A DNA stretch of 64,000 nucleotides from Prosopocoilus inquinatus (Eukaryota; Arthropoda; Insecta; Coleoptera; Lucanidae): positions 70,494,212-70,558,211 of the forward strand of contig CM069870.1 in the NCBI GenBank assembly GCA_036172665.1, written 5' to 3'. Position 1 is the stretch's first letter. The number at the start of each line of letters is the position of its first letter. Shown one piece after another: positions 6,449 to 63,179 of this stretch. The notes below the pieces were generated by a model that was not told where the DNA came from, ran no database searches, and worked only from the letters and a program-made list of their open reading frames with translations. Both the position numbers and the translations under genes were made by a program.

Positions 6449-7806
6449 TTGAACTCATTTTACAAAAAAATGTTTCAAGTGAAAGTTACTTGGAATCACG
6501 TGGAGCACAGTTTAAAATTAGTTTGGTGTATACAGAGTGTTCCGTTTGGCCTGGGCGTCAGGTCACCTCGTTATTTTAAATGGAACACCCTGTATATTAT
6601 TACATTTTCGGATTCCGGACTGAATTTTAATGTGACTTTATGTACCACACATGGGGTCTAATCTGAACCATTTTCGCGGTATTCAATTTTTTTTAGAAAA
6701 TCGTCGCTGTTGCAGTACATCAAACAAATGCATTATTTTTTAAACTTTATTTGATCTTGAGTCCAGTTTAATTAGTCTTTCTTCGTTTGGATTTAATACG
6801 AAGGCATGATTTTTTAAAGATCTAAGATCTATTTTTTTGCTTTTTGAATTTTTTTCTTTGAGTTCTACATTTGGGCTTTAAGATTTTTTGAGTGTTTCAA
6901 TATTGAGATTAAAGTTTTCCCCCGTTTTTTTTTGTCGCATTGGTATTTTGAGTAATAATTTTCGTTTTAATTTGCTTTAACATTTTTTAAATTCTTTATT
7001 TTTTTATCTTCATTTGACCTTCAGTCCAGTTTAATTTATTGGTCTTTCTTCGTTTGGATTTAATACCAAGTAAAGTATGATTTTTCAAAGTTTTAATTTT
7101 TTGTGCTTTTAATTTAATTCTTTGTCTTTTGCATCCTGTATTTGAACTTCAAGATTTTTTGATTGTTTGAATTTTGAGATTAAATTTTGTGTTTTTATGG
7201 TCGCATTTGGATTATGAGTATCAACTTTCAGTCAATTAAATCTCATGCCTCAAAAATTCAAAGACGTTGAGTTTTTGAGTCGCGAGATTAATTTTTTTCT
7301 TTTCAGTGTTTTTTTTTTTGCCTTAGAGATTTTCAGCATTAATTTTCGATTTAATTTCTTACTTATGGTTGGGTCGAGTTAGGTTGAACTCGAACACCTT
7401 CACTCGAATTCATATTATTTCTTCCGTTTCAACATTTTTTAAGTCTTCATTTTTTGATCTTCATTTGACCTTGAGCCGAATTTAATAATTGGTCTTTCTT
7501 CGTTTGGATTTAATAGCAAGAAAGGCATGATTTTTTAAAGTTTTAATTTTTATCGCTTTGAAATTTAATTTTTTGTTTTTCAGTTTTATATTTGGACTTC
7601 AATCAAGATTTTTTGAATTTTGAGATTAAATTTTTTCCTTAAAATTTTTTTTTGTCGCATGTTTGGATTTTGAATATCAATTTTCGTTCGAATTGTTTCC
7701 GGCCGAGTCATATTGAGTTCGAACACTTCTCGCCTCTTTATTTTTTTTAATCTTTATATACAGGCGGTTTCACTTAGGGCGACTTTCCGGTTCATATCTC
7801 CCCAGT
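6449..7806. mobile_element. Insertion splitting the tandem repeat; permuted relative of 9.4-10.2 kb
   Basis: The insert lies between two copies of GTTGAA in the repeat unit, consistent with a 5-6 bp target duplication. Its first ~290 bp (to about 6740) match the reverse complement of 9420-9700. Its last ~570 bp (7230-7806) match the reverse complement of about 9700-10220. In the 9.4-kb copy these blocks are joined in the opposite order, at the point where the insert has its outer ends. The interior holds three copies of a ~250-450 bp AT-rich unit around 6748, 7012 and 7462. Confidence 0.65.
6531..6594. mobile_element. 64-bp mini-MITE nested in the insert
   Basis: It begins TACAGAGTGTTCC and ends GGAACACCCTGTA, giving 13-bp inverted ends with one mismatch. 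It is flanked by TA dinucleotides. The same 64-bp unit lies in reverse orientation at 9558-9621, because its host element is inverted there. The flanking TA is typical of Tc1/mariner-related MITEs. Confidence 0.6.
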
Positions 7807-12720: not shown

Positions 12721-12962
12721 CGGGGCGGCGCTCTATTTTCATTTCATTATCTTATTTTTAATTAATTCTCTTGTTCTTGTTTCATTCTCTTATTTATATT
12801 TTATTCTCTTATTTCTATTTCATTCTCTTCTCCACTGCATTTATTACAACGTAACAGCGGATTTTTTAACAAGTTTCATTCACACTCAACCACCGGTACT
12901 TCAGTCGATCGTCGCATTCTATTTAAAAACTTCATATTCTTCCCCAAAATCACAAATGTGTA

Positions 12963-26965: not shown

Positions 26966-27107
26966 CTCAGTTCTGGAATGAAAATTACCAGCATAATTTC
27001 AGCAAAAAATTGAATCTTATTTTATTTAAATAAAATTAGTTTTAGCGCAATCTCCGGACGTGCGCTATTAATTCTTTTGTTTTTCTCCTCCGACACGGTT
27101 TTATCAA

Positions 27108-27580
27108 TACAGGGTGATTCGTAATAAGTGTTCGGCTCGTTAGGACGTGTTCAGTAAAGTCGTCAAGTACGAAATTACAAAAAGTAAGTTGTAAAAACTT
27201 AATCGGAGACATTTCGAAAATCAACGTCCTCTTTTGAGTCCCAAATGAAAAAATCGGTGGAGGGGGGAATGACTGACTGTTTACATATTTTAAAAACAGT
27301 GTCACTGTGCCAACAAAAAGAAACTGTGTCACTATGCTAACAAAAACGAATGTAACGTAGGTAGTTGATGTGACCGACCTACTTGATTCGCCCTTTAGTC
27401 GCTTGATTGATGAATGACTCACTTACGCCACCGGGCAAACGCTATTTTGATATTTCTTTTTGTTTTCTAGTAGCCAAAACGGAATCGTGAAGCTCCTCAA
27501 CCATGTTAAAGGAGTCTTCATGAACTAAACTTTCACTTTAATTCGATTAATTAGCTTCGTTTGATGCCGATCGATGCACC
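27108..27580 (+). mobile_element. TACAGGGTGATTC-family element, partial
   Basis: The left end TACAGGGTGATTC followed by AATAAGTGTTCGG matches, inverted, the end at 62673 (ACACTTACTCTGAATCACCCTGTA). Further in, 27445-27580 matches 62030-62165 in the same orientation (CCTCAAC, GGAGTCTTCA, TTCACTTTAATTCGATTAAT). A 126-codon minus-strand frame crosses the element but has no known domain. Confidence 0.5.
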
Positions 27581-59445: not shown

Positions 59446-59477
59446 CAGAGGCGTACCCAAGCAACGTCGCCGGGCCG

Positions 59478-59508
59478 CACAGTGGAGCCGAGATGGAAAA
59501 AAAAAAAA
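59478..59508 (+). promoter_or_regulatory. Left Transib end, 12-bp-spacer signal-like
   Basis: Heptamer CACAGTG (59478-59484) is followed by the 12-bp spacer GAGCCGAGATGG (59485-59496) and a run of 12 A (59497-59508). The layout resembles a 12-spacer recombination signal with an A-rich nonamer. The A run makes the nonamer register flexible. Confidence 0.65.
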
Positions 59509-60094
59509 CATTTTACAAGATGGTTAATTTGTTGATCTAACTGACTTCTCTTACATTATTTTAGCCGTAGAATCTGGCTGTGATAATGGTTTTGTGGTAA
59601 CAATTTGTTTTCATCTAATATAAGGGCTTAAATCCCATTCATTGAGTCGCTAACCTTAAAAGGAGTAATGTTCTCTAATTCCGCCAGCTTCATGGATTAT
59701 TTTTAAAAATTACTCCATTATATATTTGGTTAGTACAGACTAACAGCTTTATCTAAAAAATATAATTACTCTTTAAAGAAGCTTAGACGTAACAATTAAG
59801 CCGAAATTAGGATTTCTGGGCGTAATACGAATTTTCAGTAAGCGTACAAAAAAGCTTCACTTTCCTACAGTTTGTAATATTTTTTTTCTGAAAGCTATAA
59901 TATTGGACTAACTACCCTAAAAATTTCATAGCCGCAATCAACCGCATGCGATATATATTAATTGAAAACGAAGTTGAGTAGAGATGCGGAAAACAGCGTC
60001 AGTAGTTTGTATAAACATGATTTGTTGAATCAAGGAGGCTAACAGAGCTCCTTACTGTCAGTTTGTAATAAATAGAAACGTTCCGCACATTAAA

Positions 60095-61899
60095 ATGATT
60101 ATACCTTATAGTGAGTTGTGTGAGTTCATTTTCCAAGGTGAAATTACGTTGGAAAATTATTTGCAGGAGAAGTATTCAGAACTAAATGACAATGAAATCG
60201 GCCGTATCTGTGCGGAAATAAGTAAACGGTTCCTACCCAATTTTAATAAAAGATTGAAGGCGGTGTGTCACAATAAAACTAATTTTAAGAAGAAATACAA
60301 AGAATGGTTGGACGGCAAATTTACTTTTGACTCAAGCAAATTATTTACAGTGAAGTGGTTCTAAAGCAAAAAAATATAAAGTAAATGACTTTAAAGCCTC
60401 ACACTCTCAGGTTCTTATTGATGTTGCTGCTTCATCGTCGTTTGAAAATCAAAAGCAATTGTCTTTCGAACCCGATGTTGCTTTGGGATTAATTGTTCAG
60501 GCTAAATTATCTAAACACCAATACGAATTAATTAGAAAAGCAACCACTGATCTTGGCTGCGAAATATTCCCAAGTTACAAAAAAGTTTAGGAATCGAAAA
60601 AACGTTGCTGAGGTTCAAATATCTGAAACATCTGTCACAGTTCCGTTGCAATGTTTGCTTGACCATACAGCGAAAAGGATTGTGGACGACTCTAAACCCA
60701 TTCAAGCTGAAACTTTAGATGAAAGTATTTTTGTTTTGCACTCGAAATGGGGATGTGACGGGGCATCAGGTCAAAGTGAATTTAAACTAAAATTTTCAGG
60801 AGATGCTCCGAGTATATCTGATGCCCATTTGTTCATGACATCTATCGTACCATTGAAACTGACATCAGAAAGCAATGAAAAGGTTATCTTATGGGAAAAT
60901 CCGCGCCCTTCGTCGACAAATTATTGTAGAGCTTTGCAGTTCCTGTACAGAACCGAGACCCCTGACCTAATAAGATACGAGAAGCATCGTGTGGAGAAAG
61001 AAATACAGAATCTTGGCTGGACAACGATCACATTAGGAACATCGACAATCAACGTAAAGCACGCTTTATATTTTACAATGATCGATGGAAAAGTTGCTCA
61101 AGTTGTCACTGATACCAACTCAGCAAGCAATTGTATTGTATGCAAAGCAAAGCCCTCCCAAATGAATGACCTTTCTAAACTGGATGAAAAATCATCGAAT
61201 GAAGGTGCACTACTGTTAGGTATGTCACCTTTACATGCCCGTACACGTTTCATGGAATACATTCTGAAATTAAGTTACAATCTCTACTTCAAATCTTGGA
61301 GGTCTTCAAAGGACACCCGTGCATTCAAAAACGAAAAAAAGGAACAAGTTCAAAAAGATTTCAAGGAGAAATTGGGTTTGAAAGTTGATATGGTGAAGCA
61401 AGGCTCAGATACGACCAATGACGGCAACACGTCACGTCGATTTTTTAAAAACCCGAGCATTGTAGCTGAAATTACTGGTATTGACATTACGTTAATTCAA
61501 AAGCTGGGCACAATATTAGAAGTGATTGACAGTCAATTTACTATCGATATTGACAAATTCAAATTTTACACACAGGAGACTGCTAAATTAGCTATAACTT
61601 TGTATACATGGTATAGTCTTCCAGCTACTGTCCATAAAATTTTATTTCATGGGGCAGAGATATTAGAAACAGCAGCTCTCCCAGTTGGAATTTTGTCAGA
61701 GGAGGCACAAGAATGTAGGAACAAAGATTATAGATACTTCCGAACATACCATACCCGGAAGTCTTCCCGATGGAATACGAACTGTGACATTTTTAATATG
61801 ATCATGATATCATCGGACCCAGTCATCACTTCTTTACGACCACAGTCAAAGAAGAAGAATCTTCCTATCAGCGAAGAAGCCAGGGAATTAATGTTGTAG
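60095..61899 (+). pseudogene. Transib transposase, RAG1-related, frameshifted
   Basis: Three reading segments form one transposase. Segment 1 (60095-60361) opens with ATG and has 89 residues; it leaves frame near 60350-60362. Segment 2 continues one frame over (from about 60354) to a TAG at 60588-60590. A second shift near 60591-60620 leads into segment 3, open to the stop at 61897-61899. Numbering from 60553, segment 3 keeps D69 (CDGASGQSEFK), D178 (TMIDGK) and E387 (AQECRNK), matching the DDE acids of RAG1 (mouse D600, D708, E962); the first spacing is 109 versus 108. It also keeps CxxC (C194, C197) and H361/H366 (HKILFH), like the RAG1 zinc ligands. The enzyme would cut at the heptamer ends. 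Frame breaks make this copy inactive unless another copy supplies transposase. Confidence 0.93.
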
Positions 61900-62029
61900 G
61901 AGTCTTATCTAAAAATTAGCTTTCTTCTTTAAAAAATATTTTAGTTCTTCTTTGCCAAGTATTCTACCACCCAAGAGCATTCAAAAGTTCTGCGTGAATG
62001 TCAGCGTAATCACGAAATCCGGGCACTGA

Positions 62030-62673
62030 TTTGCAATATTTTGATTTTTTTTTTTTTTGCTTCAGCAAAAACGCAATTCCTCAACTGTGTTAATGGAGTC
62101 TTCACAATCTGATTTTTTTTATTTGTGACGTTTAATGATTCGCTTCACTTTAATTCGATTAATTATCTCGCACATGAAGCATTGCAAATTCGTAAAACAT
62201 ATGTTCATTAAAAAAAAAATCCGAATGGGCAGCGGTTGGCATTAAGACCAAATCGTTCAATTCTTCGTGGACAATAATCTTAAAATGCCGGAATTTCACT
62301 AATTTTTTGTGAATTGATACGTACGCAGAGACAAACACGATTCCACTAACAAAATTATTATTGTATCCCTGCTCAGATAATAAAAAAATCATTGTTCATT
62401 GTTCGCATTATGGAATCTTTACTCCGAAGAGTCGTAAACAAGTCGTTTTACGGTTTCAGTTTAAGGTTAAACGTTCGTGTTTTGTGTTTTTTCTTTCGAA
62501 AGTCTATTGCTGTTGTGATTATTCCAGTGACCACCAACAAGTTTAAATGCGAATTTTTAATCCATTCGATCTCAAAAACTGCAGACATAACTATGTCTAT
62601 AGTTATTTGGTTTGTTTTTTGAAGGGCTATCTGTGTTTAACGGGTCGGACACTTACTCTGAATCACCCTGTAT
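62030..62673 (-). mobile_element. TACAGGGTGATTC-family insertion in the Transib 3' part
   Basis: On the minus strand the right end at 62673 begins TACAGGGTGATTCAGAGTAA, like 27108. A block at 62030-62165 matches 27445-27580. Its left limit is not resolved; sequence between 61900 and 62030 may be Transib 3' sequence. The 60-77 codon frames here have no recognisable domain. Confidence 0.5.
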
Positions 62674-63008
62674 AAATTCATGTACGTAGTCACTTTCATA
62701 CCTTAAAATTTTATAAATAACTTTCCATGCTATTTTCATTATTTTTTTTTTACATATTCTTCGAGAATTAAAAGAAAGTAGGCAAAATCTGAAAGCACTG
62801 CCGTTTCCAGCGCAGCGTTAAATTCCCTTAAAAATAAATGACCCCTTTAAAAAATCGAAGAGTAAATTTTCAAAAATTTCGTCCAAATTTAGGCAGTCCC
62901 ATAAATTTTTTGAAACTTTGAGAAAGTCAAAAATTGTTATTTATTATCTTTTTAAAGTTTCCCGAGTTTCACGTCGATTGGACAAAAATTCTGGAAATAA
63001 GAGGTTTT

Positions 63009-63039
63009 TTCCATAAATCCGACATTTGGCCCCACTGTG
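63009..63039 (-). promoter_or_regulatory. Right Transib end, ~22-bp-spacer signal-like
   Basis: On the minus strand, heptamer CACAGTG (63039-63033) is followed by 22 bp, then AAAAAACCT. The closest register to the recombination-signal nonamer ACAAAAACC is one base earlier (GAAAAAACC, 7/9). The first 12 bp after the heptamer match the left end apart from a few substitutions; the right end carries ~10 bp more before the A block. Confidence 0.65.
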
Positions 63040-63179
63040 CGCCGCGCCGCGCCGCCCCGTCTTGGTTTATTTTTAATAAACATTAAAATAGCAATAGTTA
63101 GTAGTAGTAGGTTATCGCCGGCTTTACAACAAATAAAAAAACAACACGCGCGCTGCATTTAATAATATAATCTGAGAGG

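Follow-up and report, generated by a model that had tools for sequence, protein, structure and literature searches.

A probable inactivated Transib transposon whose two ends hold an A-rich block at unequal distances from the heptamer

We find that the window, by which we mean the whole 64-kb stretch of DNA analysed here, carries an element that is most probably a Transib DNA transposon akin to HzTransib of Helicoverpa zea, now inactivated and lightly decayed, with ends that are unequal as in some known Transibs (Table 1). As asymmetric ends have already been published and the transposase is homologous to that of HzTransib, we take it to be, most likely, an ordinary element, now dead, of a known family. 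It has traits of the Transib superfamily, namely a DDE transposase resembling the RAG1 core, inverted ends starting with a CAC heptamer, and a single gene without a RAG2-like partner, the last as judged by an open-frame search that a gene of many short exons would escape.

Table 1. Features of the Transib-family element and its surroundings, in window coordinates.
Feature	Position	Strand	Remarks
Transib-family element	59478..63039		3,562 bp; heptamers at 59478 (+) and 63039 (-)
Left flank GGCCG, candidate target-site duplicate	59473..59477	.	4/5 bases the same as in right CGCCG
Left heptamer CACAGTG	59478..59484	+
Left spacer GAGCCGAGATGG	59485..59496	+	12 bp, to first A of run
Left A12 run, then C	59497..59508	+
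Transposase, N-terminal piece	60029..60364	+	111 codons between stops; homologous part about 60089–60343
Transposase, second piece	60354..60590	+	78 codons, different frame, ends at a stop
Transposase, catalytic part	60532..61899	+	455-codon open frame; homology from 60613
3′ non-coding stretch with pieces of another dispersed repeat, ATACAGGGTGATTC end	62037..62673	.	probably nested
Right block AAAAAACC	63003..63010	-	bases 30-37 from the right end, counted from 63039
Right spacer GGGCCAAATGTCGGATTTATGG	63011..63032	-	22 bp
Right heptamer CACAGTG	63033..63039	-
Right flank CGCCG, candidate target-site duplicate	63040..63044	.

A sequence-only reading had taken the element for a Transib, and the transposase, the tree and the CACAGTG ends all agree with it. 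The HzTransib chain 6pqn_A matches residues 24–439 of the 455-aa frame (E 1.2e-100), that is, the two transposases are homologous over nearly the whole catalytic part. The RAG1L of structure 6b40, which we take to be the amphioxus protein, gives a weak match to the same frame (E 0.00042), and the Pfam RAG1 model scores 20.2 bits on the transposase, under its 25-bit cut-off. The HzTransib triad of Asp, Asp and Glu is retained in the 455-aa frame as D76, D185 and E394, which were placed by hand from the 6pqn_A alignment and the residue numbers quoted in passages of PMC6941560. A total of 552 protein relatives were found; the best among the 120 listed, P0001, is 65% identical, and the best with a named source among these 120 is P0004, from the bug Nesidiocoris tenuis (61%). 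In a tree of the window protein and the first 60 of the 120 listed relatives (of 552), the window protein joins P0001 and then P0004, with support of 99/94 and 99/95. PF26100, a precomputed domain of the relatives P0014 and P0021, was not recovered in the Pfam scan (E up to 0.01). This placement suggests, without proving it, a hemipteran host, but frequent transfer of Transibs from host to host is possible (PMC9435367). Protein-based scans of viral and genome contig collections returned pattern matches only, none of which encodes a relative, and scans of the viral contig collection with the end patterns returned no match.

Two in-frame stops, both in the second piece, disrupt the gene, as do frame changes and one missing segment. 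Between the first and second pieces about 22 residues of the relative P0001 are absent, including GRP, a motif that lies within the first 160 residues in 74 of 94 long relatives and that PMC9435367 counts as conserved in the nonamer-binding domain. With its transposase gene broken and lacking the GRP segment, this copy probably has no activity of its own. Apart from the transposase pieces, the longest open frame within the element measures 90 codons, so that, unlike the V(D)J system, the element holds no RAG2-sized frame, and a transposon of the RAG1–RAG2 type was rejected for lack of a second large frame. Seven smaller frames of at least 60 codons matched no Pfam family at E values up to 1, a search that would likewise pass over a gene of many short exons. 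Rfam gave no match in the window at gathering scores.

Decay of the copy appears light. The catalytic part has no stop in 428 homologous codons, for which the chance is 5% at 0.05 neutral substitutions per site. None of 41 columns invariant in 94 relatives is lost in the window copy, a weak test given that no relative loses more than 1 of 42, with a median of 0. On the other hand, the branch of the window copy in the tree is long (0.65 vs 0.33 for P0001), a possible sign that decay has gone further than the number of stops implies. Since the catalytic part is little decayed, the base sequence of the ends is probably near its state at insertion. The length of a homopolymer changes faster than base sequence, and this argument therefore excludes the length of the A run.

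The ends themselves we regard as genuine. Read inwards from 59478 on the + strand, the left end runs CACAGTG, the 12-bp GAGCCGAGATGG, A12 and C; read inwards from 63039 on the - strand, the right end runs CACAGTG, the 22-bp GGGCCAAATGTCGGATTTATGG and AAAAAACC. The earlier reading had reported an exact heptamer at each end, 12 bp between heptamer and A12 on the left, about 22 bp on the right, and a shared GGRGCC after the heptamer, all of which we find as described, and 11 of the outer 12 bases are the same at the two ends. CACAGTG alone occurs 5 times in the window against 1.92 expected, and at least 5 times in 4 of 100 shuffles. With A6 placed 11–13 bp beyond it the heptamer occurs once (shuffle mean 0.01; one in 1 of 100 shuffles), and with A6 at 21–24 bp it also occurs once (shuffle mean 0.05; 5 of 100 shuffles); these sole matches in the window are the two ends of the Transib element. 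As such combinations are rare in shuffles, we take the ends to be real, and chance heptamers were rejected on the ground that heptamer and A6 at both ends are commoner than in shuffles. No second copy of the ends is present in the 64-kb window, where CACAGTGGRGCC with at most 2 mismatches finds both ends and otherwise a single reverse match that overlaps the left one; the left junction (59473–59484) is GGCCGCACAGTG, whose reverse complement CACTGTGCGGCC matches the element end with 2 mismatches.

How unequal the ends are depends on how the A-rich block is measured. If one counts up to the first A, the spacer is 12 bp long on the left and 22 bp on the right. Fitted to the nonamer ACAAAAACC, the left end is best at 16–17 bp (7/9) and scores 6/9 at 12–15, and the right end is best at 21 (7/9), with 6/9 at 20 and 22 and 5/9 at 23. 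Because of the length of the A12 run the left spacer cannot be fixed, any nonamer start between 12 and about 17 bp being compatible with it. The sequence-only reading had described the right end as the left end with about 10 extra bp: the shared ATGGAAAAAA does lie at bases 16–25 on the left and 26–35 on the right, an exact 10-bp shift, but measured by the edge from A to C the runs end at bases 31 and 35, only 4 bases apart. Its further description of the ends as a 12/23 arrangement is partly supported: it agrees with the literal distances of 12 and 22 and with the inequality as such, and is weakened by the nonamer, which fits best at 16–17 and 21.

The A run is preceded by ATGG at both ends. 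The four bases before the run are shared by 282 of 20000 pairs of A6-bearing segments, and any exact 10-mer is common to bases 13–40 in 93 of 20000 random pairs; the ATGGAAAAAA 10-mer itself occurs 4 times in the window against 1.91 expected. When bases 13–60 are aligned locally, scores at least as high as that of the two ends are obtained from 119 of 3000 random pairs and from 1118 of 3000 A6-matched pairs. Between bases 41 and 240 the ends show no similarity above chance, 248 of 1000 random pairs scoring as high. The ATGG and A run with its exact 10-bp shift is better than expected for loosely placed blocks, and the shared ATGG favors the measure of spacing to the first A (12 and 22). We consider an asymmetry of the ends plausible, although it is not established from one copy.

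One alternative is that the A12 on the left arose by expansion in this copy alone, or is low-complexity sequence there by chance, the ancestral A block lying elsewhere and the ends being symmetric as in most Transibs. Runs of A or T of at least 12 are frequent, with 16 in the 64-kb window including the left A12 and one other inside the Transib element, and A6 is met in a plausible stretch at 8% of positions. Most Transib families, HzTransib included, are symmetric according to passages of PMC8289069, and the right end would fit the spacers of 20–22 bp that are given for symmetric Transibs in PMC8355894, as far as its excerpts go. However, the left sequence is not A-rich where a symmetric block would be expected at 22–23 bp (2/9 at 22, 4/9 at 23), and the ATGG before the run on both ends also speaks against a run private to the left. 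We hold this alternative to be possible but rather unlikely; it is a sub-case of the reading we favor, namely a dead Transib with unequal ends of a known kind, so that the likelihoods of the two overlap.

Alternatively, the element could belong to a true 12/23-type family, whose transposase would require the A block 12 bp from the heptamer on the left and 22–23 bp on the right, one helical turn apart. The literal distances, the displacement of the shared block by 10 bp and the light decay of the copy point this way, as do nonamer matches of 6/9 at 12 ± 1 on the left and at 23 ± 1 on the right, each of which is reached at 6.6% of all window positions. So do the published precedents, since Transibs with asymmetric spacers of 12 or 23 ± 1 bp are listed, after Kapitonov and Jurka 2005, in passages of PMC8355894, among them Transib5 of Drosophila melanogaster and Transib2 and N1–N3 of Anopheles gambiae, which are described with 12/23-type asymmetric ends such as have been claimed for the window element. 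ProtoRAG, furthermore, prefers an unlike pair of its own ends (PMC8289069, in the passages cited above), in view of which it is not far-fetched that elements of this sort should have a preference in pairing. Against such a family stand the best nonamer registers, the frequency with which A6-bearing pairs show as much inner similarity, the single copy, and the missing GRP, though this last point concerns the copy and not its family. Two blocks within 1 bp of 12 and 23, in either order, would arise by chance in about 6% of cases, a rough hand estimate in which block starts are equally likely over about 18 positions. Invertebrate RAG-like enzymes are moreover predicted to be rather insensitive to asymmetry, a statement that an excerpt of PMC7204232 makes of RAGL and not of Transib. 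On balance we find a true 12/23-type family unlikely, and nothing in these data shows a 12/23 pairing rule.

We return to the reading that we favor, that of one more dead element in a known family. According to PMC9435367, asymmetric ends are found in every Subgroup I Transib, whereas Subgroup II, to which most of the Transibs known before belong, includes symmetric as well as asymmetric ends; from its likeness to HzTransib we infer that the window element would fall into Subgroup II. HzTransib is also close in size, with 3518 bp and a 5-bp duplication in the part of PMC1852546 that we cite, against 3562 bp here. Compared by published description only, the ends of HzTransib differ in having long inverted repeats (the same part of PMC1852546) and in being symmetric with little or no similarity to the nonamer (excerpts of PMC8289069), whereas the window copy is broken and past their outer 12 bp its ends share only ATGGAAAAAA. 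The V(D)J signals, 12-RSS and 23-RSS, have a heptamer identical to that found here (CACAGTG, the consensus as quoted in PMC8289069), and the window element resembles them further in carrying an A-rich block farther in at literal distances of 12 and 22; it departs from them in a nonamer fit of 6–7 of 9 that is best at other spacings. Autonomous Transibs are often present in few copies per genome, according to an excerpt of PMC4411706. Among titles and the opening lines of abstracts we found nothing on this element, which has no name to search by.

In the mechanism that we propose, an intact RAG1-like DDE transposase would have bound both inverted ends and nicked at the heptamer border, after which hairpins would form on the flanks and the element would be pasted into a GC-rich 5-bp target. 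The outer 12 bp common to both ends would carry the cleavage site, and the A-rich block would lie further in, at a distance from the heptamer that in this copy is not the same for both ends. Cleavage at the heptamer with formation of hairpins, and GC-rich targets, are described in the literature on HzTransib and RAG (PMC6941560, in part), from which we infer the corresponding steps here. The unequal ends would be of a kind already known in some Transibs, their spacing having been set either loosely by the family or partly by the A run of this copy.

Whether unequal ends came before RAG2 bears on how the 12/23 rule arose. The sequence-only reading had attached a significance of this kind to a 12/23-like asymmetry in an insect copy; an asymmetry is indeed seen in this copy, but the phenomenon is not new, having been published already (PMC9435367 and the excerpts of PMC8355894). 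As published Transibs are already asymmetric, this copy adds at most one example, near the Nesidiocoris tenuis sequence. A 10-bp offset conserved over many copies would matter more, because a related transposase with solved structures, that of HzTransib (PDB 6pqn and others), is available for testing. We may speculate, while thinking it quite improbable, that in some Transib family akin to HzTransib the ATGGAAAAAA block is held at a constant offset of one turn (12 on the left, 22 on the right); this would be a precursor of the 12/23 arrangement that is free of RAG2, helically phased and served best by unlike ends.

The flanks GGCCG and CGCCG are identical in 4 of 5 bases and both are GC-rich, within GC-rich stretches of a window that has 33% GC. 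GC-biased 5-bp duplications have been reported for Transib and RAG in passages of PMC8289069 and PMC7204232, and the flanks fit a duplication of this type as a candidate, though an imperfect one. Among 5-mer pairs drawn from the two 25-bp flanks, 6.3% match in at least 4 of 5 bases, as GGCCG and CGCCG do.

As pieces of a second repeat are found inside the Transib element at 62037–62673, another element has probably inserted into its 3′ non-coding part. A dispersed repeat with ends like ATACAGGGTGATTC has 18 sites between window positions 6530 and 62673 at up to 3 mismatches (3.19 expected; 0 of 100 shuffles with as many), and some of the sites with 3 mismatches may be chance. The stretches 27107–27556 and 62037–62673 share repeat pieces that are 74–96% identical in a rearranged order, and two ATACAGGGTGATTC sites that face each other, at 12962 and 13384, have the look of a short element with inverted repeats.
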